A DNA stretch of 64,000 nt from Glycomyces sp. L485. GTDB lineage: Bacteria; Actinomycetota; Actinomycetes; Mycobacteriales; Micromonosporaceae. The stretch lies in assembly GCF_022548875.1 (NCBI RefSeq), contig NZ_JAKZEW010000019.1, positions 470-64,469 of the forward strand. Reading direction: 5' to 3'. A program made the position numbers and the translations under genes. Below, in pieces: positions 21,731-40,338 of the stretch (position 1 is its first letter; each line of letters opens with the position of its first letter). A model generated the notes under the pieces. The model did no database searches and was not told where the DNA came from. It saw only the letters and a program-made list of their open reading frames with translations.

Positions 21731-24099
<2,369 letters not shown>

Positions 24100-24123: not shown

Positions 24124-24153
24124 GGCCCCCGACCTCGTATGAGGCCGGGGGCC
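24124..24153 (+). terminator. Hairpin terminator after atpD
   Basis: The 13-nt arms 24124-24136 and 24141-24153 pair with one mismatch around a gtat loop, 25 bp after the atpD stop. There is no T-run. It marks the end of the ATP synthase transcript where atpC would be expected. Confidence 0.65.
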
Positions 24154-24345
24154 GCGGCGTATCCGCACACGCCGAACGCGGAGTGAGCGCGGTTGTGGAC
24201 GACCTGGTCGCGAAACGGGTCTCCTTGCAGCATTACCTCAGAGCGCATGTGTCGGCGGCACTGAGGCGAGCACGGCAGCTCGCTGCTGAAACGCGCTGCG
24301 GCGTATTCGAGGGCGTGTCGCACCTCTGCGGGGCCCTCCGGTTGC

Positions 24346-24360
24346 TAGCCTCGGTCGATG
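24346..24360 (+). promoter_or_regulatory. -10 box for a leaderless sulfotransferase transcript
   Basis: TAGCCT (24346-24351) lies 6 nt before the ATG at 24358. No ribosome binding site is present. It would start the two-gene plus-strand unit at the left end of the polysaccharide locus. Confidence 0.45.
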
Positions 24361-25527
24361 GGCGAAAAACCTGAACCGTCCCATTCCGAACGCTATATCC
24401 GATCCTTTCCCCCTGCAACGAGAGTCGTGCATGTCGGTCCGCATAAGACCGGTACGACGGCGCTCCAGGGGGCTCTCCACGCGGCCCGCGGCCGCCTCGC
24501 CGAGCACGGGGTGTGGCTGCCGAGCCCGTCTCGCAACCCGGTCGAGGAGATCAAGGAGGGCGTGCGGCCCCGGCCGGACGACCCGGATCGGGGCCGGTGG
24601 CGCCGACTCGTCGAGGCCGTGGCGCAGACCGGCGAGCGGATCGGGGTGATCAGCAGCGAGTTCTTCGCCGACGCTGAAGCGGAAGGCTGCCGCCGGGTCG
24701 TCGACGACCTCGGCGGCCCGGACGTGCACATAGTCGTCACCTTGAGGCCGCTCGCGAAGATCCTGCCCTCCCAGTGGCAGCAGCACGTCCAGAGCGGCAT
24801 GTCCACCCACTACGAGCCATGGCTCGAGGCGCTGTTCGAACCGGATCCGACCGACCGCGCGGCCTTGGCGTTCTGGCACCGCCACCGCCACGACCGCTTC
24901 GTCGAGCGCTGGGCCGAGGCCGCTGGAGAGGATCGCGTCACCGTTCTCGTCGTCGACGATCGAGAACGCGACCGGCTCCTGCTCGACTTCGCAGCCCTTC
25001 TCGGCCTGCCCGAGGGAACGCTCCGGCCCGCGAAGGGTGCGGGGAACCGGTCCTTGACCGCCGCCGAGATCGAGATCGTGCGCCATTGCGCCGAGGCCAG
25101 CGAGAAGCGCGGATGGCATCTGTCGGACTTCCGCAAGTACGTCCGCTACGGCGTGGTGCCCCGCCTCAAGACCGGCCGAACCCCGCCGCCCGAGGAGGCC
25201 CGGATCGCCACGCCCGCCTGGGCCGTCGCCCGGGCCGCCGAGATCGGCTCGTCCATGGCCGAGCGGATCACCGAAACCGGCGTCCGCGTCATCGGCGACC
25301 TCGACCTCCTCGCCGGCAAGCACGTCGAGTCCGCCGAAGCCGGCGAGCACCGCCTCGACCCGTCCGTGACCGCCCAGGCCATCCTCAGCTGCATGTCGGT
25401 CGTCTTGCGCGACGGCGAAGCCGCGGCGGCCGCCGCGGCCGAAGTCGAGCGTGCCCGTTCCCAGTCGATCCTCCGGACCGTCTCGCAACGCGCGCGGGGA
25501 CGCTTGGCTCGCAACCGCAACCGGTGA
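24358..25527 (+). CDS. Sulfotransferase 1, PAPS-dependent type
   Basis: The product is 389 aa. The 5'-phosphosulfate loop HVGPHKTGTTALQ (about 25-37) at the N-terminus is the PAPS-binding signature of a sulfotransferase-like family common in polysaccharide loci. A second typical element is the VTLRPLAKILPSQWQQ segment (about 126-141), resembling the 3'-phosphate site. No membrane helix or signal is seen, so it acts in the cytoplasm, probably on a lipid-linked sugar or nucleotide-sugar acceptor. The C-terminal 40 residues are Ala/Arg rich. It lies 7 bp before an acyltransferase gene, so the two probably modify the same polymer. The acceptor is unknown. Confidence 0.78.
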   Translation: MGEKPEPSHSERYIRSFPPATRVVHVGPHKTGTTALQGALHAARGRLAEHGVWLPSPSRNPVEEIKEGVRPRPDDPDRGRWRRLVEAVAQTGERIGVISSEFFADAEAEGCRRVVDDLGGPDVHIVVTLRPLAKILPSQWQQHVQSGMSTHYEPWLEALFEPDPTDRAALAFWHRHRHDRFVERWAEAAGEDRVTVLVVDDRERDRLLLDFAALLGLPEGTLRPAKGAGNRSLTAAEIEIVRHCAEASEKRGWHLSDFRKYVRYGVVPRLKTGRTPPPEEARIATPAWAVARAAEIGSSMAERITETGVRVIGDLDLLAGKHVESAEAGEHRLDPSVTAQAILSCMSVVLRDGEAAAAAAAEVERARSQSILRTVSQRARGRLARNRNR

Positions 25528-25534
25528 GGTACCG

Positions 25535-27646
25535 ATGACCAGCGCATCCACCGCACAGGTCGCCGGGCCACCGGCCCAGCGCGCCTCGACGCCCACGCCC
25601 CGCTCGAAGGCCAGGTCCGCGTTCCGGCCCGACATCGAGGGCCTGCGCGCCATCGCCGTCGGCCTCGTCGTCCTCGGCCACGCGGGCTTCCCGGGGCTCG
25701 ACGGCGGCTACGTCGGTGTCGATGTCTTCTTCGTGATCTCCGGCTTCCTCATCACCTCCCTGCTGCTGCGCGAGCTCGCCGGCACCGGCCGCATATCCGT
25801 GGCCGGCTTCTACGCCCGCCGCGCCACGCGATTGCTGCCGATGGCCGCCACCGTCACCGTCGCCACCCTCGTCGCCTCCTGGCTGTGGCTCGCCCCCACC
25901 AGGTTCGCCTCCATCGCGGGCGACGCTGCGGCCGGCGCCCTGTACTTCGTGAACTACCGACTCGCCGCCGAAGGCACCGAATACCTCAACGCCGACGAGG
26001 CGCCGTCCCCGTTCCAGCACTACTGGTCGCTCGCGGTCGAGGAGCAGTTCTACCTCGTCTGGCCGCTGCTGCTCCTCTCCGTCGGCCTCATGCTGCGCAG
26101 GAGCCCCGAGCTCATCCGCGACGGACTGACCGTCGCACTGCTGTTCATTCTCGGCACCACGTTTGCCGCCAGTGCCGTACTCTCCGACCACGAACCGGTC
26201 TGGTCCTACTTCGGCCTCCACACCCGAGGCTGGGAGCTCGCGATCGGCGCGCTGGTCGCCCTCGGGGGCGCGGCCTGCGCGCGCATACCGCACGCGCTCG
26301 CCGCCGCGCTCATGTGGGGTGGCCTGGCCGCGATCGTGTGGTCGGCCTTCACCTTCGACGCGGGCACCGTCTTCCCCGGCACCGCCGCGGCCGTGCCGGT
26401 GCTCGGCACCGCCGCCGTCATCGCCGGCGGCTGCGTCGCCCCCAAGGCCGGGGCGGGCGGGATGCTCGCGCTGCCCGGCTTTCAGGTCCTCGGGCGGCTC
26501 TCCTACGGCTTGTACCTGTGGCACTGGCCGATCCTCATGATCGGCCCCGAGGCACTGGGCGCGGAACCGACCGTCCGCCTCAACCTCGTGCTCGTCGCCG
26601 CCGCACTCGGCATCACCGCCGTCACCCACGAGGTCGTCGAGAACCCCGTGCGATTCTCGTCCTGGCTCAAGCGCCGCGCCTGGCGCGGCGTGGGACTCGG
26701 AGTCGCGCTCACGGCCGTCTCGGCCTCTGCCGCGCTCGCAGCGACCTCTCTGTTCGCGCCGCGAGCCGAGGGCACCGGCGAAGCGGTCCAGACCCCCGAG
26801 ATCGACACCGTCGCCGAGCTGGGCGAGCTCGTCCGCGAGTCGGCCACCATCACCGAGGCGCCCTCGAACCTGACCCCGACGCCCTTGGACGCCAAGGGCG
26901 ACACGTCGAAGATCTACGGGAGCGGCTGCCACGCCGTCCTCGAAGTCGTCGAGTTCGAGCCGTGCGTCTTCGGCGAGGAGGGGAGCGGCACCGAGATCGT
27001 CCTCTTCGGGGACTCCCACGCCGCCTCGTGGTTCCCGACTCTGGAGATCCTCGCCGACGAGCACGGCTGGAAGCTCACCTCCTACACCAAGAGCGGCTGC
27101 CCGGCGCCGATGATCGCCAAGAACGCCGCCGACATCGGCGGGCGCTACTTCCAGTGCGAGGAGTGGCGCGAGCGGACGATCGAACGGATCGTCGAGGAGC
27201 GCCCGGAGATGATCGTGGTCGGCTCCAGCGAGAACAACAATCCGATCACCGACGGGCTCAGCGCCGACGAGACCTGGATCGAAGGCTGGAAGCAGACCCT
27301 GGAGCGGTTGAACGGGAGCGGCGCCGAGGTCGTGCTGCCGTCCAACCCGCCGAAGTTCACCCAGAGCGTCCCCGACTGCGTCTCGGCCAACCTCGCCGAC
27401 CTCACCGTCTGCGGCGGCCCGACCGACCTGGTAGTCCGCCATCGCGAACGCGAGCAGCAGGTCCTGGAGGAGGCGGAGCGGCTGGGCGTCCACACGATCG
27501 ACGTCACCGACTGGTTCTGCGCCGACGGGTTCTGCCCCGTCGTGGTGGGCAACATGATCACCCACCGCGACTCGCACCACTTCAACGTCACCTACGGCGA
27601 GTTCCTCGCACCGGTCCTCGACGCGGAGCTGCCCGACATCGACTAA
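25535..27646 (+). CDS. OafA-type membrane O-acyltransferase with SGNH domain
   Basis: The product is 703 aa from ATG 25535 (GGTGAGGT upstream). The N-terminal acyltransferase-3 domain (about 30-390) has ten or so membrane helices with the signature RPDIEGLRAIAVGLVVLGHAG, VGVDVFFVISGFLIT, and FYARRATRLLP, plus WSLAVEEQFYLVWP. After a last helix (about 395) an extracytoplasmic SGNH hydrolase-like domain follows, with FGDSHAASW (about 490) and the C-terminal HRDSHHFN block holding the Asp/His pair. Such fusions transfer acetyl or similar groups to surface glycans such as O-antigen. It probably O-acylates the polysaccharide made by this locus. It converges on the GT2 gene with a 20-bp gap. Confidence 0.9.
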   Translation: MTSASTAQVAGPPAQRASTPTPRSKARSAFRPDIEGLRAIAVGLVVLGHAGFPGLDGGYVGVDVFFVISGFLITSLLLRELAGTGRISVAGFYARRATRLLPMAATVTVATLVASWLWLAPTRFASIAGDAAAGALYFVNYRLAAEGTEYLNADEAPSPFQHYWSLAVEEQFYLVWPLLLLSVGLMLRRSPELIRDGLTVALLFILGTTFAASAVLSDHEPVWSYFGLHTRGWELAIGALVALGGAACARIPHALAAALMWGGLAAIVWSAFTFDAGTVFPGTAAAVPVLGTAAVIAGGCVAPKAGAGGMLALPGFQVLGRLSYGLYLWHWPILMIGPEALGAEPTVRLNLVLVAAALGITAVTHEVVENPVRFSSWLKRRAWRGVGLGVALTAVSASAALAATSLFAPRAEGTGEAVQTPEIDTVAELGELVRESATITEAPSNLTPTPLDAKGDTSKIYGSGCHAVLEVVEFEPCVFGEEGSGTEIVLFGDSHAASWFPTLEILADEHGWKLTSYTKSGCPAPMIAKNAADIGGRYFQCEEWRERTIERIVEERPEMIVVGSSENNNPITDGLSADETWIEGWKQTLERLNGSGAEVVLPSNPPKFTQSVPDCVSANLADLTVCGGPTDLVVRHREREQQVLEEAERLGVHTIDVTDWFCADGFCPVVVGNMITHRDSHHFNVTYGEFLAPVLDAELPDID

Positions 27647-27666
27647 GTCGACGTCGACCGGGTTGA

Positions 27667-28605
27667 TCAGATGCCGCGCCCGCGCCGGTGCAGGGCGGCC
27701 ATCACGGTCGGGACGCCGACGACGCCGGCCGCCGCCGCGGCGGCGACGGCCGCTCTGGGCTCGCTCGGGTTCGACTTGGTCGCCTTGAGCGCCCAGCGCA
27801 GAGCCTCCTTGCGGTCGCCGATGGCGGCGTGCCAGCAGGCGATCTGGCCGTAGACGCGGGCGGCGCCCTCGGGGCTGCCGTGGATCTCCGGGTGGCGTTC
27901 GAGGATCCACCGCAGCGAGGAGATCTTGGTGTCCCAGCGCGCCTCGAAGTGCGAACCGGCCCAGTTGATGAGCGCGAACGGGGTGTCGACGTGCGCGATC
28001 GGGCGGCGTCTGGCCGCCCGCAGCAGCATGTCCCAGTCCTCGTTCTGGCTGCCTGGGGCGTCCTCGGCGACCAGGCCGAGCCCGCCCAGGAGGGCCGAGC
28101 GGCGGAATACGAACGTCGAGGAGTGCAGCATCATCATCCGCGAACGCAGCAGGTCGACGTGCCGGACCGTGGACTGTCCGGCGAATCGGGCGTTGCGCCG
28201 CCCCCGGTAGTCGACCTCGATCGCGGTAGTGCACATCTCGGCTTCGGTGCCGAGGGCCGCGACCTGCGCGGGCAGCTTGCCGGGGAGCCATTCGTCGTCG
28301 TCGTCGAGGAACGCGACGAGGTCGGTCCCGAGCGCGGTGATCCCGGTGTTGCGGGCCCCTGCGAGGCCGGGCGTGCGCTCGTTCTTGACCACGCGCACCG
28401 GGCGCTTGCCAGTCGCGACGGAGCTTGCGGAGTCACGGGCCCCCTCGGCGGCGATCGACTCGTCGGGCTTGGCGCGGTCGAAGACGACGACGACCTCGAC
28501 GTGACCGGGGTAGAACTGGGTGAGCACCGAGCGGAGCGCCTCGCGCACCTGCCTGGGCCGATCGTGTGTCGGGATGACGACCCCGATCGAAGGCCACTCA
28601 CTCAC
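27667..28605 (-). CDS. GT2 family glycosyltransferase
   Basis: The product is 312 aa. A GT-A fold starts at once (SIGVVIPTHDRPRQVREALRSV), with the nucleotide-sugar site LAGARNTGI and the metal-binding FLDDDDEW (DDDDE about 101-105). A conserved acidic NEDWDMLLRA segment marks the acceptor side. It transfers a sugar from a nucleotide donor to a growing glycan in the cytoplasm; donor and linkage cannot be read from sequence. The GTG start overlaps the upstream sulfotransferase 2 stop by 8 bp. The C-terminal 30 residues are Ala/Arg rich with one weak hydrophobic stretch. Confidence 0.88.
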   Translation of the reverse strand: MSEWPSIGVVIPTHDRPRQVREALRSVLTQFYPGHVEVVVVFDRAKPDESIAAEGARDSASSVATGKRPVRVVKNERTPGLAGARNTGITALGTDLVAFLDDDDEWLPGKLPAQVAALGTEAEMCTTAIEVDYRGRRNARFAGQSTVRHVDLLRSRMMMLHSSTFVFRRSALLGGLGLVAEDAPGSQNEDWDMLLRAARRRPIAHVDTPFALINWAGSHFEARWDTKISSLRWILERHPEIHGSPEGAARVYGQIACWHAAIGDRKEALRWALKATKSNPSEPRAAVAAAAAAGVVGVPTVMAALHRRGRGI

Positions 28606-29623
28606 CGGCGGTCACCTCTTTCGGCTCGGGGACCAGTGTCTCTTCGTTCAGGTAGCCGTATCGGCCCAGCAGCGGGCGCGTCAGCGTCGACACCATGCGG
28701 CGGGTGCCGTCGGGCATATCGTCAGTCCACGCCTCGTCGGGCCGAATCGGTATGCGCCCCACGGTGAACCGCATCGGGTTCCCGGCAGCCGAGTGGCTCG
28801 GGCCGAGATCGGCCCAGCCGTCGCCGATGAAGTTGAGGTCGGATTCGACCAGGTCGAGGTCGCAGAACCGCGCCAGTGACGCGATGACCTTGCGGGGGCG
28901 CTGGATGATCCGCTCGTAACGGACTCGCCGCACCGGCACGCCGCGCCGGGCGAGCAGGCTGAACGCGGCGTTCTGCGCGTTCCACAGCATCGCGGCCTTG
29001 GCGGGGGAGTAGCGGGTCATCTGGTCGCCGGTGGGCGACTCGGGGCGCCGCACCTGCTTCGTCCAGGAGTAGGCCACGCCCCGCGAGTCGCGCACGACGT
29101 GCAGGACCCGCAGGTCGATGTTCGGCGACCAGCGCAGGCAGTAGGCCAGCGAGGCGTGCTTGGACGAGTCCACCACCACGCGGGCGTTCGTGTCCGCCGC
29201 GGCGGCCTGGTAGACCTTCTCGAAGTAGGAGACGTACTCGCGCACCAGCTGGTGCTGGGCGGGTGCGATCCTCTTCGCCGCGAGCGCCGGAATGTGCCGG
29301 GTTCTGTCTATGGTGGCCTTCAAGGCGCCGAGGCGCTCCACGTCCACCGAATCCCAGGACCCGAAGGCGGCCGCGCCGATCCGCTGCCAGAACTCGCAGT
29401 AGGAGAACGTGGCCCCGCAGGCGCACATCTCGTTGCCGAGCAGGTCCCGCTCCCACAGGTGAGTGATCTCGCCTAGCGGCATCACGCCGGGCAGCTGCCC
29501 CAGCAGCCGCTCTAGGAGCGTCGTGCCGCTGCGGCCCAGGCCTCCGATGAACACCACCTTGACGGGGTTATCGGACTGCTCGGCCGTATCGGCGATCTTG
29601 ACGCTCACTGATGCCACTCCCAC
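28598..29623 (-). CDS. Sulfotransferase 2, Cys-rich type
   Basis: The product is 341 aa. The PAPS loop is FIGGLGRSGTTLLERLL (about 25-41). A second PAPS contact lies in LHVVRDSRGVAYSW (about 174-187). The segment GNEMCACGATFSYCEFW, with three cysteines before FW, is typical of an actinobacterial sulfotransferase subfamily. The protein is cytoplasmic by sequence. The start is uncertain: GTG 29623 gives the longest form, while GTG 29608 has a better spaced GGGAGTGG. It is cotranscribed with the GT2 gene and diverges from the WecG-like gene. It differs clearly from the other two sulfotransferases of the locus, so they probably sulfate different positions. Confidence 0.82.
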   Translation of the reverse strand: MGVASVSVKIADTAEQSDNPVKVVFIGGLGRSGTTLLERLLGQLPGVMPLGEITHLWERDLLGNEMCACGATFSYCEFWQRIGAAAFGSWDSVDVERLGALKATIDRTRHIPALAAKRIAPAQHQLVREYVSYFEKVYQAAAADTNARVVVDSSKHASLAYCLRWSPNIDLRVLHVVRDSRGVAYSWTKQVRRPESPTGDQMTRYSPAKAAMLWNAQNAAFSLLARRGVPVRRVRYERIIQRPRKVIASLARFCDLDLVESDLNFIGDGWADLGPSHSAAGNPMRFTVGRIPIRPDEAWTDDMPDGTRRMVSTLTRPLLGRYGYLNEETLVPEPKEVTAGE

Positions 29624-29653
29624 TTCTGCTCGATCGCGATTCCCTGTGTGTCG

Positions 29654-29659
29654 GTATAA
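29654..29659 (-). promoter_or_regulatory. -10 box of the sulfotransferase 2 - GT2 unit
   Basis: On the minus strand TTATAC lies about 30 nt upstream of the sulfotransferase 2 start, giving a short conventional leader. The region also serves the divergent WecG-like gene. Confidence 0.4.
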
Positions 29660-29725
29660 CGACTCTGGGTGGGGTCGAGGACACGCCCTGAAGTGAAAAA
29701 ACCCGGAAAAAGCCGCCGGGGCGCT

Positions 29726-29742
29726 TACCGTCTGATGGCATG
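29726..29742 (+). promoter_or_regulatory. -10 box for a leaderless wecG-like transcript
   Basis: TACCGT (29726-29731) ends 8 nt before the ATG at 29740, with no ribosome binding site between them. Confidence 0.4.
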
Positions 29743-30561
29743 GAGCGGTTTGACCCTTCGCGGCGCGGTGAGTCCGACAATGCGGTCGTGACTCGGATCC
29801 GGCTGGGCGGCATCGGCATCGACCCGGTGAGTGAACGGCAGGCGGTCGAGCGGGTGCTCGCGGCGATCGAAATCGGATGCGGCGGGCAGGTCGTGACTCC
29901 GAACGTGGACATCCTGGCCGCCGCCAGGCGCAGCCGCGAGCTGCGGACCATCATCGAGGACTCCGACCTCGTCGTCGCCGACGGAGCCCCGCTCGTGTGG
30001 GCCTCCAGAGTGGCCGCAACGCCGCTGCCCGAGCGCGTCGCCGGCTCGGACCTGGTGTGGAGCCTCTCGGAGGCGGCCGCGACGCGCGGTCTGCGGATCG
30101 CGCTGCTCGGCGGCACCCCCGACGGGACCGCCCGGCCCACCGAGCGCGCCGCCGAGATCCTCGAAACCCGATACCCGGGCCTCAAGGTCGTCGGGGCGTG
30201 GTGCCCGCCGATGGGCTTCGACCGCGACGAGACGCACTGGCGGGCCCTGGTCGACCGCTTCGAAGCCGCCGCACCGGACCTGGTCTATGTCGGCCTCGGC
30301 TTCCCCAAGCAGGAGCACGTCATAGCGCGCCTGCGGACGGTCGCCCCGCGAGCCTGGTTCCTCGGCTGCGGGGCGAGCATCGACTTCATCGCCGGATTCC
30401 GGCGCCGCGCCCCCGAGTGGATGCGGCGAACCGGCACCGAATGGCTGTTCCGGCTCGCCTCCGAACCGCGCAGGCTCGCCCGGCGCTACCTCCTCGACGA
30501 CGTCCCCGAGGCGCTCAGGCTCCTCGCGTCCGCCGTCGCGGCGCGACGGCGGCATCACTGA
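29740..30561 (+). CDS. WecG/TagA/CpsF family glycosyltransferase (GT26)
   Basis: The product is 273 aa. The family motifs are in order: VVTPNVDILAAARR (about 51-64), ADGAPLVWASR (about 80-90), IALLGGTPDGTA, VYVGLGFPKQE (about 182-192) and LGCGASIDFIAG, then RRAPEWMRRTGTEWLFRL. Known members transfer N-acetylmannosamine (TagA), its uronic acid (WecG) or other sugars to an undecaprenyl-diphosphate-linked sugar at the membrane. It therefore probably adds the second sugar of the repeat unit. No polyisoprenyl-phosphate sugar transferase is present in the window, so the first sugar must be loaded by an enzyme encoded elsewhere. Confidence 0.92.
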   Translation: MERFDPSRRGESDNAVVTRIRLGGIGIDPVSERQAVERVLAAIEIGCGGQVVTPNVDILAAARRSRELRTIIEDSDLVVADGAPLVWASRVAATPLPERVAGSDLVWSLSEAAATRGLRIALLGGTPDGTARPTERAAEILETRYPGLKVVGAWCPPMGFDRDETHWRALVDRFEAAAPDLVYVGLGFPKQEHVIARLRTVAPRAWFLGCGASIDFIAGFRRRAPEWMRRTGTEWLFRLASEPRRLARRYLLDDVPEALRLLASAVAARRRHH

Positions 30562-30562
30562 T

Positions 30563-31294
30563 TCAGCGCCGGCGGGCGACGTAGACGACGTCCGTGCACC
30601 GCTTCGACATCGGCGAGGCCAGAAGGCCGTCGGTCGCCTTCGCGAACCACGCGACCGGCGCGCGATAGCAGCCTCGCGTGAACAGCGTGAAGCCCTGCAC
30701 GCCGACCAGCTCGTACCGGTGCCGGTCGAACAGTGCCCGCATCTCGGCGTGCGACAGCTCCTGGAACCACGTCGAGGCGTCCAGCCGGCCGAACGTCTTG
30801 CGCAGGTGGCGCAGCGAAGCGGCATTGCCGTGGTTCTCGACCAGCAGCAGCCCCGCGTCGGCATCGGGCAGAGCCGCCGAGGCGAACTCCATCAGTTGGT
30901 CCCGCAGGGCCTCGTCCACATTGAGCACGAAGCGGAACGCGGTCACCAGCGCCGGGCGGCCCGGCGACGCGGCGGGTGCCGCGCCGCCCGGTCCGACCAG
31001 GTGCGCGTACCCCGGCGTGCCCAGCTCGCGGCCCTTCGCCAGCATCGCCTCCGACGTGTCATAGCCGTGCGAGACCTCCACCAGGCCCGACAGCATCCGC
31101 GCCACCCGCCCGGTGCCGCAGGCGAAGTCGTGGTGCACCGGCGGCACCCCGAACGCGGTCGGCACGAAGCCGCGGAGCCAGCCCGTCTGGCGTGAACTCA
31201 CGATCGACGAGAACGTCCCGGGCGCATAAGTGTCCTCGGCGTACTTCTCGACCGCGTTCGGGTCCTGGAAGACCTCGGTGTAGTTGGCAGCCAC
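30563..31294 (-). CDS. Class I SAM-dependent methyltransferase
   Basis: The product is 243 aa. SAM motif I is HDFACGTGRVARML (about 55-68), followed by the acidic motif II position in GYDTSEAMLAKG and a motif IV-like ALVTAFRFVLNVDE. The N-terminal YTEVFQDPNAVEKYAEDTY stretch resembles sugar and small-molecule methyltransferases. It probably O-methylates the glycan or a precursor. GTG 31294 has GGGGGA six bases upstream. It is the last gene of the six-gene minus-strand unit beginning with the Wzz-like gene and meets the WecG-like gene tail to tail. Confidence 0.85.
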   Translation of the reverse strand: MAANYTEVFQDPNAVEKYAEDTYAPGTFSSIVSSRQTGWLRGFVPTAFGVPPVHHDFACGTGRVARMLSGLVEVSHGYDTSEAMLAKGRELGTPGYAHLVGPGGAAPAASPGRPALVTAFRFVLNVDEALRDQLMEFASAALPDADAGLLLVENHGNAASLRHLRKTFGRLDASTWFQELSHAEMRALFDRHRYELVGVQGFTLFTRGCYRAPVAWFAKATDGLLASPMSKRCTDVVYVARRR

Positions 31295-31318
31295 GAATAT
31301 CCCCCAAATCGGAAGGTG

Positions 31319-32791: not shown

Positions 32792-33642
32792 TCGGCGAGC
32801 CGCGCGTCGTAAGGCTCATAGTGGTCGGTCAGGCGCCGACGCAGCGCCGGCGACATCGGCGAGGGCCGTCCGCGGGCGTTGTGCCGGGCGAACGCGAACT
32901 CGCCGAGCCACGGCAGTCCCAGGAAGCGCAGGACACGCTCGAAGACGTCCTCGGGCCTGGTGAAGAACTCCCCGGAGTCGAGCACGAGGACCCGGTCGCG
33001 GCCCACCGCTTGCGCGAGCGGCTCCAGGTAGTCCGTGTAGCGCCCGCGCGCGACATAGGCGTGGTGCTGGTGGTCGAAGCTGTAGTGGGCCGGGTCGATC
33101 CGCAGACGCTGCTCGGCGCCGAGCAGCCGCCCGGGCTCGGCCTCGACGGCCGCCTCGAAGTCGGCGATGTCGTCGAAGTCGCGCGCCACCTCGTGCGCGT
33201 GGTGCGACCAGGCCCGCTCGACCGGGTCGCGGACGAGCACGATGACCTTGACACCGGGCAGGTCGCGGGCGAAGCGCCGTGCCGCCAGAGGGTGGTACAG
33301 GTAGTACGGGCTCGACTCGAACCCGACGGGCGCGAGGCCGGTGTGGTCGGCGATCCTGCGCGCGACGGCCTTGGTGGGGAAATGCGCCCGGTACCAGGCC
33401 AGGCCCCGCTCATACGCGGTGTCGAAGTAGTGGACGCCCTTGTGGCACACGGGCTTGAGGATCGCCGGGTGCTGCGCGAGCGCGCGGTACAGCGAGGTGG
33501 TGCCGCAGCGCTGGCCGCCGCAGACCAGCAGGCCCGGCAGGATCCGCGACGACGACGTCAGGAGCCCGAAGGTCCTGGTGGAGTGGCCGACGACGGCCTT
33601 GACGGGAGTCGGCACGCGCTCCCGCAGCGATCGCTCGCTCAA
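32758..33642 (-). CDS. Sulfotransferase 3, heparan/NodH-like
   Basis: The product is 294 aa. The PAPS 5'-loop is GGQRCGTTSLYRALAQHP (about 42-59), the 3'-phosphate site VLVRDPVERAWSHHAHE (about 125-141), and SSPYYLYHP between them is the conserved loop of the Sulfotransfer_1 domain as in heparan-sulfate N-deacetylase/sulfotransferases. The catalytic-side KGVHYFD matches the lysine/His region of that group. It is cytoplasmic by sequence. The TTG start has AGGAG eight bases upstream. Being within the export/polymerisation operon, it probably sulfates the repeat unit before flipping. Confidence 0.88.
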   Translation of the reverse strand: MSERSLRERVPTPVKAVVGHSTRTFGLLTSSSRILPGLLVCGGQRCGTTSLYRALAQHPAILKPVCHKGVHYFDTAYERGLAWYRAHFPTKAVARRIADHTGLAPVGFESSPYYLYHPLAARRFARDLPGVKVIVLVRDPVERAWSHHAHEVARDFDDIADFEAAVEAEPGRLLGAEQRLRIDPAHYSFDHQHHAYVARGRYTDYLEPLAQAVGRDRVLVLDSGEFFTRPEDVFERVLRFLGLPWLGEFAFARHNARGRPSPMSPALRRRLTDHYEPYDARLAEWLGRTPSWRR

Positions 33643-33668
33643 TCGTTGCTCCTAACAGTCCGCAGTAG

Positions 33669-34877
33669 TCAGACATCGCGCTGCCGTGCTATGTGTCGCA
33701 GTAGTGTCGGCAGCAGCCACCGGCCCAGCGCCCCGAGCGAGGCTCCGGCCTGCTCGGCCTGGTCGCCCATGTAGCGGACCGCGAGGTCGACCAGGTACAG
33801 CAGTGTCGTCGGCTCCGACTCAGAGGGAGTGACGCCCATGGGGGACAGCACGGCCGAGGAGTTCGCGGCGAGCAGCAGCACCGCCGTGGTCGGGTCGACC
33901 TGGTGGGTGACGATGTCGTCCTGGAGCCGGTAGTGGACGGCGTCGAAGCCGAACGGCACGCCGGTCTCGAACCGCTCCAGGTCCCACAGGTAGATCACGT
34001 CGGCCGCCTCGCAGGTGTTCCACGGCGACCAGTCGCCGTGCCAGGCTCCGAAGGTCAGCTCGATCGTCGCGTACCGGTCGAGCAGCGTCGTTCCGGCGGC
34101 CACGAGCGTGTCGGCCTCGGTGTCGCCGCGCTGCGCGAGCAGCTTGAGGCGGGTGCGCAGTCGGTGCGCGTAGTCCGACTCGCCGAGCGGTGAGCGCACG
34201 GTGCCTGCCACCGCGGCCAGTTCGCTCATGGCCTCGATGCGGCGCGTCTCGCCGCACTCGATCGGCTGGGTCCAGGCGGGGAGCGCCGAGGTGACCATGA
34301 GGTTGTGGCCGCGCCAGGTGCCCGAGTGCAGTAGGCGAGGGACGCGCAGGCGCCGCAGGTCCCAGTACTCGCTGAGCCGGCGGGTCGCGGCCGTCTCGGC
34401 CTCCACGAGCTCCCTGGTGAGCTGGTTGACGCCGAGCTTGGCGAACGCGACGGTGCGGGCGTCGCCGTCGAGGATCTGGAGCACCGGTTTGCGGTTCGCC
34501 CTCGCAGGTCCGATGTGGATGCTGATATGCACATCGTGGCCGAGGACCGCGCTGAGATGGTCGTCGATGCCCTCGGCGGCCGAGACCTCGATGCGGTGGG
34601 GCAGCAGGAGCCGGTCGAGGCCCAGGCGCAGCGCCCACACCGCGGCGTCGCGCTTGGCGCGGGCGGCCCTGGCGGCGGGCCGGGAGTACCTGGCGAGGGC
34701 CCCGGCGGCGACCTTCCTGGTGGCGGCCGGGATGAGCACGCGGGGCTTGCGCCGGTTGGGCACCACGATGTACGGGCGCGTCTCCTCTCCGGACTCCGGG
34801 TAGAGCTGGCCGACCACCTCGGCCAGGTAGGTGGCGCGCCGACGCAGGTCGTCGGCGGTCTGCAGGGCTCTGCTCAT
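33669..34877 (-). CDS. Protein-kinase-fold (APH-like) phosphotransferase
   Basis: The product is 402 aa from ATG 34877 (CGGAG upstream). The C-terminal part has the phosphotransferase motifs of the aminoglycoside/choline kinase fold: catalytic loop AWHGDWSPWNTC (about 277-288) and the metal-binding IYLWDLERFE (about 293-302). Before that, GDARTVAFAKLGVN resembles the ATP-site lysine strand. The first 150 residues are basic and unusual. No membrane helix is seen. Placed between the ligase-like and sulfotransferase 3 genes, it may phosphorylate a sugar, a lipid carrier or a glycan acceptor. The substrate cannot be inferred, and similar genes occur in other actinomycete polysaccharide loci. Confidence 0.75.
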   Translation of the reverse strand: MSRALQTADDLRRRATYLAEVVGQLYPESGEETRPYIVVPNRRKPRVLIPAATRKVAAGALARYSRPAARAARAKRDAAVWALRLGLDRLLLPHRIEVSAAEGIDDHLSAVLGHDVHISIHIGPARANRKPVLQILDGDARTVAFAKLGVNQLTRELVEAETAATRRLSEYWDLRRLRVPRLLHSGTWRGHNLMVTSALPAWTQPIECGETRRIEAMSELAAVAGTVRSPLGESDYAHRLRTRLKLLAQRGDTEADTLVAAGTTLLDRYATIELTFGAWHGDWSPWNTCEAADVIYLWDLERFETGVPFGFDAVHYRLQDDIVTHQVDPTTAVLLLAANSSAVLSPMGVTPSESEPTTLLYLVDLAVRYMGDQAEQAGASLGALGRWLLPTLLRHIARQRDV

Positions 34878-34879
34878 GG

Positions 34880-36253
34880 CTACTCCGTACTCGTTCGCAA
34901 GGGCACTGGTATTCGGTTGGCGGCGAGGAGCACGTAACTGAGGAGCGTGAACAGCAGGGGGGTGACCAGGGCGTTGTAGTAGAACATCGAGAGCATCGAC
35001 AGGCCTATGACCGCCGACCCGGCGATCCCGACCGCCGAGTGGTCCGACCGGAAACGCCACAGCACGGCCAGGGTGAAGCCGAGGTAGGCGATGGTCCCGG
35101 CGACGCCGTGGGCGAACAGGACCTGCCACAGTTGGCCGTTGCCGCCGAGGGTGCGGCCCCCGCAGCGCGGGCATTCGGGCGTGGGGCCCACGGCGATGGA
35201 CTCCCCCGAGCCGAGGGTCTTGCGGGTCGAGCCGAAGCCGAGGACCGGCGAGTGGCTGAGGACGAGCTCGGCGGCCCGCTCGGAGGAGAAGGCGCGGCCG
35301 TCGTCGGAGTGGCCGTTGTCGAGCCGCGTCTGTGCGACCGTACCCAGCGGTGTGAGCGCCACGAGCAGGAGCGCGGCGCAGCCGGCTCCGGCGAGCGAGG
35401 CCATCCCCGCCGGTCGCCCCGATATGAGCAGCCGCAGTGCCGCGAAGACCGCGATGGCGGCCAGGCCCAGCCACAGGCCCCGGTTCATCGAGTACACGGC
35501 CGGGACCAGCGAGACGGCGAGCAGCACCGTGGCCGCGACGCGCCAGCGCTTGCGCAGCGGCAGGCAGAACGCGGCGACGGCGAGCCACACCAAGGTGATG
35601 GCGAAGTTGTTGCCCCAGGTGTTGGTGTAGCCCCAGGGCGCGGCCGGGCGCGGCGTCTCGTACCCGAGGAAGTCCATGGTCTGCGCGGCCGCGGGGTGGA
35701 CCAGCGACTGGACGAAGCCGTCGGCGGCCACCGACTTCGGAAGCAGCGCCTCGACCGGCGAGGTGTATTCGAAGCCGCCGGCGAAGGTGCCGAGCAGACC
35801 CCCGGCCACCGTGACGGTGAACAGCCACGCCAGCAGCCGGATGAGCCGCTCCCGCGGATAGCGGCCCTCGGCGACGAGGTTGTAGGCCCACAGCGCGATG
35901 AGCGTGAGGCAGCAGTAGAAGCCGAGCCGGAACGTCGCACCGGGCAGGTTGGAGAACCAGGAGCCCGCGACGGTGCCGGGCGGGTCGACCCCGAGGTTGG
36001 CGACGCTGAGCGTGACGGTCAGCAGGAACAGCAGCCACCATCCGAAGGCGGGCGGCACGGCGATCGACCTGCGCCGTAGCAGGCGCACCGCGCCCACGGA
36101 GGCTACGAACGGGATGGCCAGGATTCCCATGCCCAGGGCCCACCACAGTGGATAGGCGGCGAGCAGCCATGTCAGGGCCGCTCCCTCGGGCGCGGTTTCG
36201 GCGGGGGACCGTCTGGAGGCGCGGGCGGCCCGCGCCGCTTCGGTGAGGGTCAT
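34880..36253 (-). CDS. O-antigen ligase/polymerase-like membrane protein
   Basis: The product is 457 aa from ATG 36253, which overlaps the Wzz-like gene by 4 bp. There are about 11-12 membrane helices and one large extracytoplasmic loop between the late helices (about residues 300-375), the layout of the WaaL/Wzy superfamily. That loop holds LSHSPVLGFGSTRKT, which resembles the H..PhG.G motif of the O-antigen ligase domain, and a CPRCGG knuckle-like pair unusual for the family. It would join repeat units or attach the polymer to an acceptor outside the membrane. Wzy and WaaL roles cannot be separated by sequence. Confidence 0.82.
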   Translation of the reverse strand: MTLTEAARAARASRRSPAETAPEGAALTWLLAAYPLWWALGMGILAIPFVASVGAVRLLRRRSIAVPPAFGWWLLFLLTVTLSVANLGVDPPGTVAGSWFSNLPGATFRLGFYCCLTLIALWAYNLVAEGRYPRERLIRLLAWLFTVTVAGGLLGTFAGGFEYTSPVEALLPKSVAADGFVQSLVHPAAAQTMDFLGYETPRPAAPWGYTNTWGNNFAITLVWLAVAAFCLPLRKRWRVAATVLLAVSLVPAVYSMNRGLWLGLAAIAVFAALRLLISGRPAGMASLAGAGCAALLLVALTPLGTVAQTRLDNGHSDDGRAFSSERAAELVLSHSPVLGFGSTRKTLGSGESIAVGPTPECPRCGGRTLGGNGQLWQVLFAHGVAGTIAYLGFTLAVLWRFRSDHSAVGIAGSAVIGLSMLSMFYYNALVTPLLFTLLSYVLLAANRIPVPLRTSTE

Positions 36254-37878
36254 CGCGTCTCTGCCGGCTGCGAGTGGTCGGCCGATTCGGCAACGGCGTC
36301 CAGCGTCTCGGTGGGAGTCTCGTCGGCCGAGGGCTTCCGCGCTCGCGGGGGGGCCTCGCCGCGCGGGCCCGGCATCGGCACGTTGTTCATGGGCCCCAGG
36401 ACGCTCGGCAGCAGGGCCGCGCCGAGCAGCGGGGTGTCGATCTGGCGCATCGCCGTGGCGGCGGCCGCGGTCTCCGCGATCGTGTCGCGGCGGGCCTGGA
36501 CGGCGAGGATGACGGCGTCGGCGTGGGCGGCGAGCAACTGTGCGTCGGCGGAGCACGACAGCGGCGGGGCGTCGACGACGACGAAGCGCCCGGCCTCGGC
36601 GAGCTTGGTGAACGTCTCGGCGGCTGCCTCGCTGGTGGGCCCGGTGGCCCGTGCGGCCGCACCGGGGCCGACGATCGTCAGGGTCGGCTGTCTCGGCGCG
36701 GACTGCATGGTCTCGGGCAGGTCGATCCGCCCCGACCACACGTCGGCCAGGCCGGGAACCGATTCGGTGCCGAACAGCTCCGGCAGGCCCACGGTGGTGC
36801 TCGGGTTGGCGGCGACGGCGGTGACGCGGTCGCCGGCTCGGGCCATCGCGGTCGCGAGGTTGGCGGCGACGACGCTGGCGGCCGGGCCGGGCGCGACGCC
36901 GGCCACGACCACGATGCGTTGGGCGCCGGTGAGCTGGGAGGAGATGACGTTGCGCATCTGCGAGAAGACCCGCCCGCCGGGGCTGTAGGCGCCGAAGACC
37001 TCGCGGTGTTGGATCTTCGCCGAGGCGGGCATCGAGCCGAGGACGTCGAGTTCGCACCGCTCGACCAGGTCGACCGGGTAGGAGACGCGCCGGGCGAGGC
37101 GGTGCCGCGCCCAGGCGAGCATGAGGCCGAGCGGCAGGCCCGCGCCGAGGGCGGCGGCGATGTTGAGGATCGCGTTCGGGGAGACCGGGGAGTCGGGGGT
37201 GGTGGGCTGGTTGATGATGCGCCCGGGCGTGATCGTTCCCCGCTCGGCCTCGAGTGCAGCGATCTCGGACTCCATCTCGCCTGCCCGGCCGGTCAGGGTG
37301 TCGAGACTGGACTCGATGGCATTGCCGTCCTCATACGGGCCGAGTGAGGCCAGTTCTCCCTCCAGGCGGTCGATCTCGGAGTTGACGGTGTCGAGTCCCG
37401 TCTGCGTTGCGGTGATCGCGTTCTCGATCGAGGCGGTGGCGCCGCCGAGCCGGTGGTCGAGGTAGGCGTCGCTGAAGGCGATCGTGCCGGCCTTGGCCCG
37501 GCCGGGGTCGTCGGCGCGGAAACTGATCTCCAGCACCGAAGTGTTGGGCGGCACCGAGACCGAGACCTGCTTCGCCAGTTCGGAGGTGGCCGGGGCCGAC
37601 AGCCGTTCCGCGGCCGCCTGGGCGACCTCGGTGGACAGGACGAGTTGCGCTTCGGTATCGAGGTTGACCTGCCCGGGCGTCCTGGCTCCGGCGACGTCCG
37701 CGTCGGTGGCGGTGGGCATCACCAGGACCGAGGCCGTGGACTCGTAGACCTTGTCGGTGGCGACGGTGTAGCCGATTCCGGCGGTGATCGCGGCGGCGAC
37801 CGTGCCGACGATGAGCCACCAGGAGCGGCGGGCGATGGTGCCGTAGTCGGCGAGCGTGCGGGCGGCGGGGGTCCTCAA
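36250..37878 (-). CDS. Wzz-like chain-length regulator with degenerate tyrosine-kinase domain
   Basis: The product is 542 aa from the TTG at 37878, where GAGAAAGG is well spaced; TTG 37926 would add 16 residues. The N-terminal Wzz domain spans membrane helix 1 (about 20-40), a periplasmic-type domain with coiled coil, and membrane helix 2 (about 240-262, after a PxxP-like segment NQPTTPDSPVSP). A cytoplasmic BY-kinase-like P-loop domain follows, but its Walker A reads AGVAPGPAAS with no GKS/T, the Walker A' acidic residue is missing (VTAVAANPS), and there is no C-terminal tyrosine cluster. The Walker B FVVVDAPP survives. It probably controls polymer length without kinase activity. It is the first gene of the six-gene minus operon. 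Confidence 0.85.
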   Translation of the reverse strand: MRTPAARTLADYGTIARRSWWLIVGTVAAAITAGIGYTVATDKVYESTASVLVMPTATDADVAGARTPGQVNLDTEAQLVLSTEVAQAAAERLSAPATSELAKQVSVSVPPNTSVLEISFRADDPGRAKAGTIAFSDAYLDHRLGGATASIENAITATQTGLDTVNSEIDRLEGELASLGPYEDGNAIESSLDTLTGRAGEMESEIAALEAERGTITPGRIINQPTTPDSPVSPNAILNIAAALGAGLPLGLMLAWARHRLARRVSYPVDLVERCELDVLGSMPASAKIQHREVFGAYSPGGRVFSQMRNVISSQLTGAQRIVVVAGVAPGPAASVVAANLATAMARAGDRVTAVAANPSTTVGLPELFGTESVPGLADVWSGRIDLPETMQSAPRQPTLTIVGPGAAARATGPTSEAAAETFTKLAEAGRFVVVDAPPLSCSADAQLLAAHADAVILAVQARRDTIAETAAAATAMRQIDTPLLGAALLPSVLGPMNNVPMPGPRGEAPPRARKPSADETPTETLDAVAESADHSQPAETR

Positions 37879-37921
37879 CGCGAATGCCTTTCTCGTTCTT
37901 GGGCTCTCGCTCAAGTAACGA

Positions 37922-38005
37922 GTCAACGCGCCGGAAGGTGACGGGCTGCGGCATCCGTCCGGAAAGTATCACCGGTACGAGGGGATTGTTGTGTCAACGC
38001 GCCGG
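37922..38005. promoter_or_regulatory. Paired operator-like repeats in the wzz/glycosidase divergent region
   Basis: GTCAACGCGCCGG occurs exactly at 37922-37934 and 37993-38005, 71 bp apart in direct orientation. Both copies continue to a TGAC (GTCA-N13-TGAC and GTCA-N12-TGAC), so each is also a loose inverted repeat. They sit between the minus-strand polysaccharide operon and the plus-strand glycosidase gene, a likely site for a shared regulator. TTGACA on the minus strand overlaps the second copy. Confidence 0.5.
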
Positions 38006-38073
38006 TAATGACCATCTCATTCGTTATCATGTGGATTCGCGGCAGTTCGAGCAAGAATCACAAAGGACTGAAG

Positions 38074-39768
38074 ATGAGCAAGTGGAACGCGCGGCCCGGG
38101 CTGCCGCTGAGGACGGGGCGAGGTCTCGTCACGCTCCTGGCCGGCGTCCCGCTGGTGCTGGCGGGCTTCATCATCGGCTACGGAGTCGGCGTCGACCACG
38201 AGCGCACCACCCGTACCGTGCCGGCCTGGGAACAGGAGCAGCACGGGGCCGCCGACCACGAGCCGGTCGCCGCCTCCTTCACCGCCACCGACGTCGACGG
38301 TCCCGCCCCGGCCGACCCGGCCGCGCTGCCCGTCGGCAACAGCACCGGACTCGGCATCGCCGTCACCCACCTCCAGTTCGCCCTCGACGAGTCCACAGTG
38401 AATCCCGACCACACGGCCGAGCTGCGCCTGCCGGTCCTCCTCCCGCCCGACAGCGAGGCGATGATGATCGAGGTCTCCTCGGTCCAACCCGTCTCGTGCC
38501 TGTGCGGGCTCACCGCCTCCTCCGCCCCGCCCTACGGACGCGTATGGGACACCGCCGTCGTCGACTCCGCCACCACTGAAGTCGTCTTCGACGTCACCGG
38601 AGCGATCGACGCCCCCGGGCGCTACGGCTTCGCGGTCACCACGCCCGACCGCGACGCCTACCTCGAATTCGAAGGCGGCCGGATCGACGGCGAAGGGCCG
38701 AAGCTGCGCACCGTCTCGGCACCGGGGGCGCCGCCGAGCCACACCGGCGAGCCGACCCCGGCCGACGACCCGAGCAGCGCCGAACCCGGCCCCCTCACCC
38801 CCGAGGCCGGGCAGGCCGAGGACACCCTCGGGACCTGCTCCGCCGGCGACAAGCTCATCCCCACCTGCGGAGCGCTCGTCGGCGCCGCGGCCGGCGCCCA
38901 CACCAACCGCCCCAAAGAGCAGGCCTTCCTCGAATTCGAGCAGGACGCCGGGCGCACCCAGCACATCTACCACGCCTACGAACGCGCCGACGGGAAACTC
39001 TTCCCCACCCGCGAGCAGATCGCGCTCGCGAACGACCCGGACCACCCCAGGACCCTGTTCATCAACTGGAAGCCCCGCATGGCCGACTGGGCCGCGATCG
39101 CCGCAGGCGACCCCGAGGTCGACGCCTACCTCACCCGCCTGGCCGACCACATCAAGGCCAACTTCGACAAGCCGTTCTTCTTCACCGTCCACCACGAGCC
39201 CGAGAACGATGTCATCGACCGGCCCGGCTCGGGCATGGAGCCCGGCGACTACGCCGACATGTACCGCTACGTCGTGACCTTCCTGCGCGACCAGGGCGTC
39301 GACAACCTCGTCACCGTCATGAACTACATGGGCTACCTCAAATGGGTCGACATGCCCTGGCACGACCAGCTCTATCCCGGCGAGGACGTCGTCGACTGGA
39401 TCGGCCTGTCCGGCTACGGCCAGTCCCTCTCGGACGACGGCCACTCCGACTTCACCGAGATCGTCGACCAGACCAATGACGGCTCCTGGCCCGGCTTCTA
39501 CCACTGGGTGGGCCGGCACCACCCGGACAAGCCGATGATGCTCGCCGAATGGGGCGTCTTCCGCCAGCAGGCCTACCCGCACCACCAGGAGACCGTGTTC
39601 AAAGCCGCCGCCGAGCAGCTCGCGCACTACCCGCGGCTGAAGGCGATCGTCTACTTCTCCTCGCCGGACGCCGAGGGCCGCGACTCCGAGATCAGCACCG
39701 ACGCCGACGCCCATGCTGCCTACCGCGAGCTCATGGCCTCACACCACTTCGACGTCGCCCTCGAATAA
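38074..39768 (+). CDS. Secreted clan GH-A glycoside hydrolase, GH26-like
   Basis: The product is 564 aa from ATG 38074 (AAAGGA upstream). An N-terminal signal anchor (about 13-37) is followed by a beta-rich region with two cysteines (SCLCGL, to about 230), a Pro/Glu linker, and a catalytic barrel (about 270-560). The barrel shows TVHHEPEND (acid/base Glu about 391) and MLAEWGVF (nucleophile Glu about 492), spaced as in GH26 and other clan A families. It probably cuts a beta-linked polysaccharide outside the cell; here it may trim or release the polymer made by the locus, as glycanases in exopolysaccharide loci do. Its 3' end overlaps mpg tail to tail by 30 bp. Confidence 0.72.
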   Translation: MSKWNARPGLPLRTGRGLVTLLAGVPLVLAGFIIGYGVGVDHERTTRTVPAWEQEQHGAADHEPVAASFTATDVDGPAPADPAALPVGNSTGLGIAVTHLQFALDESTVNPDHTAELRLPVLLPPDSEAMMIEVSSVQPVSCLCGLTASSAPPYGRVWDTAVVDSATTEVVFDVTGAIDAPGRYGFAVTTPDRDAYLEFEGGRIDGEGPKLRTVSAPGAPPSHTGEPTPADDPSSAEPGPLTPEAGQAEDTLGTCSAGDKLIPTCGALVGAAAGAHTNRPKEQAFLEFEQDAGRTQHIYHAYERADGKLFPTREQIALANDPDHPRTLFINWKPRMADWAAIAAGDPEVDAYLTRLADHIKANFDKPFFFTVHHEPENDVIDRPGSGMEPGDYADMYRYVVTFLRDQGVDNLVTVMNYMGYLKWVDMPWHDQLYPGEDVVDWIGLSGYGQSLSDDGHSDFTEIVDQTNDGSWPGFYHWVGRHHPDKPMMLAEWGVFRQQAYPHHQETVFKAAAEQLAHYPRLKAIVYFSSPDAEGRDSEISTDADAHAAYRELMASHHFDVALE

Positions 39769-40338
39769 GGCCGCGGGAGCCTTCGGATGGCGCCTGTACG
39801 GCGAGACGAAGCCGTCCCCGGCGATCCAGAACCGCCACGGCACCTCAGCGGCCCTCGAGATCCCCGTCCGCGGCCCCACCTGCACCGCGAACTCCCGCTC
39901 ACCGGGCTCGACCGCGCCGACCATGTCGGCGCCGTCGTCGCCGCGGTCCCAACCCATCGCCTGCGCCAGCCGCGCCGGACCCCGCGCCAGATCCCGGAAC
40001 GGAACCCGCGCCCCGCGTCTCGCCCGCGCCGCCTCGACGCCGTCGACGACTTCCCCTGCACGCAGCAGCACCGCCGCCCCCGCGCCGTCGGCGCCGCAGG
40101 TCAGGTTGGCGCAGAAGTGCATCCCGTAGGTGAAGTAGACGTAGAGGTGCCCGGCCGGGCCGAACATGACCGCCGTGCGGGCGGTGCGCCCCCGGAACGA
40201 ATGCGACGCCGGGTCGTCCTCCCGATATGCCTCGACCTCGGTCAGCCGCAGCGTGACCCCGTTCGCGGTGATCAGGCGGCCCAGCAGCTCCGGCGCCACC
40301 AGTACCGGATCGCGTGCGAAGAACGACCGCTCGGTCAT
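39739..40338 (-). CDS. mpg: 3-methyladenine DNA glycosylase (AAG/MPG family)
   Basis: The product is 199 aa. It removes alkylated and deaminated purines from DNA. The family signature is complete: LLGRLI...LRLTEVEAYREDDPASHSFRG (catalytic Glu in TEVEAY, about 35), FGPAGHLYVYFTYGMHFCANL (about 59-79, Tyr/His lesion-pocket residues), VLLRAGEVVDG, and the LARGPARLAQAMG basic segment. It is the third gene of a minus-strand trio with 4-bp overlaps (RAM domain, DUF3515, mpg) and marks the return to core genes after the polysaccharide locus. Confidence 0.95.
   Translation of the reverse strand: MTERSFFARDPVLVAPELLGRLITANGVTLRLTEVEAYREDDPASHSFRGRTARTAVMFGPAGHLYVYFTYGMHFCANLTCGADGAGAAVLLRAGEVVDGVEAARARRGARVPFRDLARGPARLAQAMGWDRGDDGADMVGAVEPGEREFAVQVGPRTGISRAAEVPWRFWIAGDGFVSPYRRHPKAPAALFEGDVEVV

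Follow-up and report, generated by a model that had tools for sequence, protein, structure and literature searches.

A wps-1-type candidate sulfated-exopolysaccharide locus in Glycomyces and its lineage-bound linkage to candidate initiator and sulfate-supply genes

Known sources of sulfated polysaccharides are animals, algae, cyanobacteria and some marine bacteria, according to the accessible parts of two studies (PMC13390465, PMC11766843). The closest described system in actinomycetes is wps-1 (wpsA–wpsK) of Actinoplanes missouriensis, a putative sulfated-exopolysaccharide (EPS) cluster that was published with single-gene knock-outs by Tezuka and Ohnishi in June 2026 (PMC13390465; statements here follow the obtainable portions of that paper). 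A locus at positions 24358..39768 of a 64,000-nucleotide stretch of the soil actinomycete Glycomyces sp. L485 (the window; positions 470 to 64,469 of contig NZ_JAKZEW010000019.1) has a core in the same gene order, and we give a probability of about 0.75 to its representing, in Glycomyces, an inherited sulfated-glycan system of actinomycetes, of the wps-1 type. The evidence consists of gene content, conservation, motifs and the genetic linkage of the core with sulfate-activation genes and with a polyisoprenyl-phosphate hexose-1-phosphate transferase (PHPT), and a Wzx/Wzy-assembled sulfated EPS is the best reading of the locus.

Normal sporangium formation in A. missouriensis requires all wps-1 genes apart from wpsD, with the wpsB mutant affected only in spore release. 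Deletion of wpsH gives squashed sporangia, deletion of wpsB lowers spore release about tenfold, and deletion of the adjacent ATP-sulfurylase/adenosine-5'-phosphosulfate (APS)-kinase gene AMIS_7390 causes a severe defect that was called unexpected (PMC13390465). According to its authors, sulfate on the wps-1 polymer awaits verification, and the text of the paper that was found names no initiating transferase (WbaP, phosphotransferase and 3'-phosphoadenosine-5'-phosphosulfate, PAPS, are not mentioned in it). The synechan xss cluster of Synechocystis 6803 is likewise of the Wzx/Wzy kind with two unlike sulfotransferases, and sulfate has been found in synechan; it differs in its eight glycosyltransferases, its XssS/R/Q regulators and its location on a megaplasmid, and is likened here by description, not by sequence (PMC8205485, accessible part).

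The Glycomyces core and wps-1, as the latter is described in the available text, are collinear through a GT2 glycosyltransferase, a sulfotransferase, a GT26 glycosyltransferase, a methyltransferase, Wzx, a second sulfotransferase, a kinase-like protein, Wzy and Wzz; this match was drawn from the gene order in print and from loci of other Actinoplanes, not from AMIS protein sequences. Since the order is the published one, the idea of an actinomycete sulfated-EPS cluster is not new, and the remark in a first-pass annotation of the window that such sulfation is rarely reported in an actinomycete has been overtaken by that publication. Unlike wps-1, the Glycomyces core lacks genes in the places of WpsD (DUF4262) and WpsE (GH26), for which there is no room because the GT26 gene ends at 30561 and the methyltransferase gene at 30563; neither is treated as defining, since A. 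missouriensis can do without wpsD and, to some extent, without wpsE (PMC13390465, in part). Glycomyces instead keeps a different, distal GH26, three of its genomes add a third sulfotransferase and an acyltransferase, and the APS-kinase gene, adjacent in A. missouriensis, lies 120–181 kb away in the 13 congeners that have it on the same contig as the second core sulfotransferase.

The locus is made up of two parts, a conserved core (27667–39768) and an accessory pair. Protein family evidence was obtained from our own gene calls followed by Pfam and NCBIfam scans, which in the window covered 50 of 60 predicted genes. The core starts with the GT2 glycosyltransferase at the WpsA position (27667..28605, minus strand; PF00535, 1.9e-22), which stands at 82–87% in congeners, followed by the sulfotransferase ST2 at the WpsB position (28598..29608, minus; PF13469, Sulfotransfer_3, 6.4e-14) and the WecG/TagA/CpsF-type GT26 glycosyltransferase at the WpsC position (29740..30561, plus; PF03808, 2.4e-54). 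The S-adenosylmethionine methyltransferase-like protein at the WpsF position (30563..31294, minus) matches PF13649 at 4e-4, below the cut-off. A Wzx-type flippase at the WpsG position (31319..32791, minus; MatE, 6.1e-8; 10 transmembrane-like segments by simple hydropathy) is followed by the sulfotransferase ST3 at the WpsH position (32758..33615, minus; PF13469, 4.4e-13), which resembles heparan-sulfate (HS) 3-O-sulfotransferases and N-sulfotransferases (3-OST/NST). The APH-type kinase-fold protein at the WpsI position (33669..34877, minus) keeps its HGD, N, WD and E positions unchanged across 19 rows; APH matches are found in 4 of 19 orthologues, the window's own copy being without a Pfam match, and its family profile had no match in the PDB.

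The polymerase/ligase at the WpsJ position (34880..36253, minus) matches PF04932 (Wzy_C) at 0.0013, below the cut-off, so that the Wzy call rests on its position and its 10 transmembrane-like segments; on that basis, the flippase, polymerase and co-polymerase set of the Wzx/Wzy-dependent pathway is all present. The Wzz-like co-polymerase at the WpsK position (36250..37878, minus; PF02706, 1.6e-6; eps_fam, 6.1e-15, under cut-off) carries an ATPase-like domain with GVAPGPAAS where the Walker A lysine is expected, and none of the 28 displayed rows (of 35) has a lysine there. An active bacterial tyrosine kinase (BY-kinase) of the Wzc/CapB kind was rejected for this reason, and Wzc-style control by tyrosine autophosphorylation is unlikely. 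The core closes with the GH26-type glycosidase (38008..39768, plus; PF02156, 1.5e-5), which has an N-terminal transmembrane-like segment and corresponds to the distal GH26 and not to WpsE, its identity being about 22–27% to the GH26 that relatives have in the WpsE place, and mostly 41–53% to distal GH26 proteins from outside the genus. Endoglucanase H (GH26) was found as its nearest solved relative (6e-6), with weak overall similarity and two aligned Glu positions that we take to be the catalytic residues. A further paper deals with other glycosidases, and its accessible text mentions neither sulfate nor GH26 (PMC12691653).

The accessory pair consists of ST1, a third PAPS-type sulfotransferase gene directly after atpD (24358..25527, plus), and an AT3 acyltransferase fused to an SGNH domain (25535..27646, plus; PF01757, 1.5e-27; PF19040, 1.4e-28), which is OafA/SucT-like and scores 268 bits against the NCBIfam SucT model (cut-off 1275). 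The parts listed in the first-pass annotation were all located as claimed, with family support for the GT2, GT26, MatE-type flippase, Wzz, AT3-SGNH acyltransferase and GH26 proteins; its polymerase/ligase-like and methyltransferase proteins lie where it put them but with sub-threshold matches, and its kinase fold is supported by matches of 4 of 19 orthologues and not by the protein itself.

Three PAPS-loop proteins of unlike types had been proposed, and their loops were confirmed from the translations as HVGPHKTGTT (~24430, ST1), GGLGRSGTT (~29548, ST2) and GGQRCGTTS (~33516, ST3). ST2 and ST3 are above the Pfam cut-offs for Sulfotransfer_3. The ST2 loop, GGxGRSG[T/S]T, is kept in 34/34 rows, with a second motif, VRDxRGVAYSW, above 90% per column, and the ST3 loop is conserved in its orthologue alignment as well; in ST1, five aligned rows (the window's and four homologues) show no variation in either the loop, HxGPxKTGTT, or a further motif, TLRxLxxIxPSxWQQ. 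The conserved motifs of all three are presumably the 5'-phosphosulfate-binding (5'-PSB) loop and the 3'-phosphate-binding (3'-PB) motif. Against solved structures, the ST3 family profile found a bacterial sulfotransferase (3rnl, 4.4e-31) and HS 3-OST/NST enzymes (5.6e-24 to 8.2e-20), and ST1 had no match in the PDB. PADLOC gave no match for ST1, ST2 or the kinase-fold protein. Across the genome (4.4 Mb in 151 contigs) PF13469 gives nine match rows, three of them (two genes) in the window; the other six, on contigs C33, C145, C15, C134, C18 and C127, are of similar strength (121–140 bits). Taken with the conservation of the cluster across genera, this makes the grouping in the window more than a chance one.

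Conservation was assessed in 21 Glycomyces congeners (including a metagenome-assembled genome, MAG, G020, as well as G012 G. tenuis, G002 G. xiaoerkulensis and G021 G. salinus), in 39 non-congener members of the order, and in loci of named genomes found through ST3, for which the best 80 of 557 stretches encoding ST3 relatives were kept, giving 70 named full-length loci (17 Glycomyces and 53 others). The core, with its two sulfotransferases, is complete and in the same order in 18/21 congeners, the other three being broken by contig ends (L026, L049, L054), and in the 18 full loci its genes can be aligned along most of their length, at 57–92%. The full marker set of eight genes (GT2, ST2, GT26, Wzx, ST3, kinase, Wzy and Wzz) occurs in 17/17 Glycomyces and 46/53 other named full-length loci, and the methyltransferase gene in 17/17 and 36/53 respectively, so the cluster comparison bears out a core conserved across genera. 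An ATP-sulfurylase/APS-kinase gene is inside the locus in 45 of the 53 non-Glycomyces loci and in none of the 17 from Glycomyces. ST1 stands directly after atpD in 3/22 Glycomyces genomes (the window's, G002 and G021), weaker relatives lying at other places in G012, G002 and G009 (matching genomes in total, 5/61), and the AT3-SGNH gene is at the locus in the same three genomes among 20 loci that extend that far (L050, with two copies, and L051). Three sulfotransferases as a single conserved unit were therefore rejected: two of the three enzymes grouped by the first-pass annotation belong to the conserved core and ST1 is accessory. From their names, we take G. salinus and perhaps G. xiaoerkulensis to be of saline origin, and it is a guess from three cases that the pair adds extra charge for saline habitats.

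Divergent wps-like clusters are seen in G022, G024 and G029 (L229, L230, L232), with ST3 at 38–40%, kinase-fold, Wzx, Wzy and GT2 genes and no GT26; the cysQ regions of these genomes are without PHPT, and the clusters are possibly a second sulfated-glycan type.

No PAPS-synthesis or initiating-transferase gene was found among the 50 scanned genes of the window, as had been noted from the sequence, and the expected dependence on genes elsewhere, including cysD/cysN/cysC and a WbaP-like gene, was matched by candidates outside it: Bac_transf genes, a CysQ-like phosphatase, CysD, CysN and one APS kinase. Three Bac_transf genes are present (C6, C111, C15), of which that on C6 (TIGR03025, 413 bits) is the candidate initiating PHPT and lies directly upstream of the CysQ-like phosphatase, CysD and CysN; from this linkage we infer that it serves the glycan pathway. 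WecA-type initiation was rejected because the genome's one PF00953 match is presumed to be MraY. The single APS-kinase match in the genome is within an ATP-sulfurylase-like fusion. In the congeners, PHPT is within 1.5 kb of cysQ in 15/20 loci read (G004, G006, G014 and G016 being read no further than this 1.5-kb neighbourhood), and cysQ is on the same contig as ST3 in 17/21, 33–42 kb apart. CysH (L157) carries CC and CxxC motifs that we take to be APS-reductase motifs; its best NCBIfam name over the cut-off is phosphoadenylyl-sulfate reductase, the APS-reductase model scoring 208 against a cut-off of 235. That PAPS would be free for sulfation if CysH acts on APS is only a lead.

Among the 39 further order members, 15 have the core and 13 are core-negative with the cysQ region read; of the remaining 11, ten are without a cysQ match and in G023 cysQ is split over two contigs. 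PHPT is in the cysQ region of 15/15 core-positive and 0/13 core-negative members (Fisher 2.7e-8, kinship ignored), where the divergent-cluster genomes G022, G024 and G029, together with G031 (ST3 with or without Wzx), were counted as core-negative by our own choice, which favours the rule, and where five of the 13 (G038, G048, G050, G053, G056) have cysQ without cysD/cysN nearby. PHPT is immediately upstream of cysQ in 13 of the 15, ~3 kb off in L210 and ~6 kb off in L192. Also in these 15 genomes, the APS-kinase gene is ≤20 kb from ST3 in nine and cysQ in five, against 0.11 expected in each case. On a cysQ tree of 31 genomes, core status needs seven changes, four of them forced by supported branches, and linkage follows core.

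At the level of the class, the kinase-fold gene is found in 42/246 genomes, our own included (22/96 genera). The sample read comprised 37 of the 41 other kinase-positive genomes (G024 is counted in the order set and three are without a listed cysQ place) and 27 kinase-negative genomes chosen by us to spread over genera; some stretches of the sample end at contig ends. PHPT is near cysQ in 23/37 kinase-positive and 6/27 kinase-negative genomes (Fisher 0.002), immediately upstream on the same strand in 20/37 of the former and within ~1 kb upstream in 3/27 of the latter. A kinase match is ≤25 kb from cysQ in 23 of the 37, or in 21 with best matches only (for G189 and G292 a weaker second match was used). 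The strict rule that the core is present if and only if PHPT is beside cysQ was true in the 28 order members read but not in the class sample. The link is genuine, yet bound to particular lineages. In families f30 and f32 (L301, L302, L305–L307), PHPT is a few kb from cysQ-cysD-cysN without a wps kinase gene, and these loci perhaps serve other sulfated polymers.

In six named-genome loci the core, cysN, cysD, cysQ and PHPT form one cluster within 20 kb: Streptosporangium minutum (L114), S. canum (L119), two Nonomuraea (L133, L135), Acrocarpospora phusangensis (L148) and a MAG (L131). The one-piece order is APS-kinase fusion, GH26, Wzz, Wzy, kinase, ST3, Wzx, GT26, GT2, ST2, cysN, cysD, cysQ, PHPT. 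The five loci other than L131 have the APS-kinase fusion and no methyltransferase match; Wzz was not detected in L133 and is also missed in L135 under a stricter score filter, and L131 has most of the genes, the APS-kinase fusion not being within its stretch. The Streptosporangium/Sphaerisporangium loci L115, L136, L142 and L143 have no cys genes within their stretches. Glycomyces has the same gene set in three pieces. Cobetia marina is a marine bacterium far from the actinomycetes. In its strain KMM 1449, cysN/cysC, cysD and cysQ likewise lie inside a capsule cluster whose sulfated polymer has been characterised, but this cluster uses an ABC-transporter route with a Kdo primer and not Wzx/Wzy (PMC11766843, accessible part).

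In the pathway that we propose, the PHPT (G000:C6) would prime undecaprenyl phosphate with a sugar-1-phosphate, and the GT26 and GT2 enzymes would extend this primer into a short repeat unit. ST2 and ST3, joined by ST1 in three genomes, may then sulfate the unit using PAPS, with further modification by the methyltransferase and possibly the kinase-fold protein, before Wzx would flip it and Wzy and the Wzz-like protein would polymerise it outside. Trimming or release of the chain could fall to the GH26, and acylation of the polymer at the membrane to the accessory AT3-SGNH protein. CysDN and the genome's single detected APS kinase would supply PAPS, and CysQ would remove the by-product 3'-phosphoadenosine 5'-phosphate (PAP). 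The biochemical steps, their order, the identity of the sugars and the presence of sulfate are deduced from these genes, and the "heavily sulfated, acylated" polymer of the first-pass annotation is still inference. A wider proposal, which we hold tentatively and at somewhat short of even odds, is that spore-forming Actinomycetes possess a dedicated sulfated-glycan system both older than sporangia and independent of them; that in two families the placing of the initiator inside a PHPT-cysQ-cysD-cysN operon couples the start of glycan synthesis to the supply of PAPS and the removal of PAP; and that, if CysH uses APS, PAPS is mainly for glycan sulfation. If true, this last point would account as well for the "unexpected" damage to sporangia on deleting AMIS_7390.

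Several observations weigh against the wps-1-type reading. In A. missouriensis, the sporangia of the wpsB mutant still look normal, AMIS_7390 is not co-induced with wps-1, and mutant defects could, as the authors point out, stem from trapped undecaprenyl intermediates (PMC13390465, obtainable text); no report of measured sulfate on such an actinomycete polymer was found in the open-licence PMC literature. ST1 is the weakest call, Sulfotransfer_4 at E 0.047 being below the cut-off at which Pfam would recognise it. On the supply side, two further Bac_transf genes (C111, C15) are present, the CysQ-like protein scores 76 bits against a TIGR01331 cut-off of 229, the APS-kinase fusion matches only weakly in its sulfurylase part, C6, C147 and C119 are separate contigs in the assembly, and in G001 PHPT is ~4 kb upstream of cysQ, so that the adjacency does not hold in all Glycomyces. 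In the class sample, 14/37 kinase-positive genomes lack the PHPT-cysQ link (all nine of family f37, and G232, G066, G072, G225 and G248), PHPT is 5–6 kb away on the far side of cysQ in three of the 23 positives, and six of 27 kinase-negative genomes have it in the cysQ stretch; supported branches of the cysQ tree leave only four independent pairs (sign test p 0.125).

The linkage of PHPT, cysQDN and core might be no more than a neighbourhood that two families share by common descent, with no functional tie. It is lineage-bound, being pronounced in f1, the family of the window, and in f29 (20/21), and absent in f37 (0/9), and the independent pairs are few; even so, we consider descent alone unlikely, as core-negative f1 members (G022, G024, G026, which was read in part, G029 and G031) keep cysQ-cysD-cysN without PHPT, and G057 and G044, of one genus, differ in core and linkage together. 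It is less probable again, and distinctly unlikely, that the same Wzx/Wzy polymer is made while the sulfotransferases have some other acceptor (a small molecule, a glycolipid or a polymer of the spore wall) and are co-located by accident. The acceptor is not fixed by sulfotransferase family, rhizobial and mycobacterial enzymes sulfating lipo-oligosaccharides (PMC8205485, in part), whereas deletion of wpsH in A. missouriensis resembles deletions of wpsG, wpsJ and wpsK (PMC13390465, in part). ST2 and ST3 moreover remain among glycan genes across genera, and the closest solved relatives of ST3 are a bacterial sulfotransferase of unstated acceptor and the HS 3-O-/N-sulfotransferases.

Glycomyces forms spore chains and is not known to form sporangia, and the cluster could be a sporangium-matrix system that is a dispensable relic in this genus. 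The functional data found are sporangium phenotypes only (PMC13390465, accessible part). The relic explanation is nevertheless very improbable given the 57–92% conservation of the core in congeners, an ST3 free of internal stops in 21/21 of them, and the retention of the ST2, ST3 and GH26 motifs. The core is also found in Catellatospora, Stackebrandtia and Nonomuraea, which are not known to form sporangia. The inherited sulfated-glycan system thus remains the preferred reading, and a proven actinomycete sulfated polysaccharide would be a new source of such polymers. The linkage supplies a candidate initiator and a complete candidate PAPS cycle, and it predicts a shared phenotype of wps, AMIS_7390, cysQ and PHPT mutants. 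Added here is the location of candidate initiator and sulfate-supply genes; in the open-licence PMC literature no report was found of the PHPT-cysQDN link, of the one-piece cluster in Streptosporangium and its kin, of the three-sulfotransferase variant or of the cluster in Glycomyces.

The locus is bordered on the left by atpD (22672..24099, plus) and on the right by a methylpurine-DNA glycosylase gene (39739..40338, minus; PF02245, 4.2e-59), both outside the system. Gene calls, with names inferred from Pfam families, place rho, prfA, prmC, tsaC and an atp operon on the left; on the right they place genes of these types: DNA glycosylase, thiL, fakA, recG, rnc, smc and ftsY. The epsilon-subunit gene atpC is missing 3' of atpD (24099–24358), and the genome's single PF02823 match is on contig C110 (L065:9433–9738, minus); a tblastn search with this protein found no match in the other loci searched (L027–L064 and L071–L093, only some of which extend to atpD). 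The core occupies the atpD-atpC break, and in L028, from a 3.5-Mb relative, it is inverted relative to atpD.

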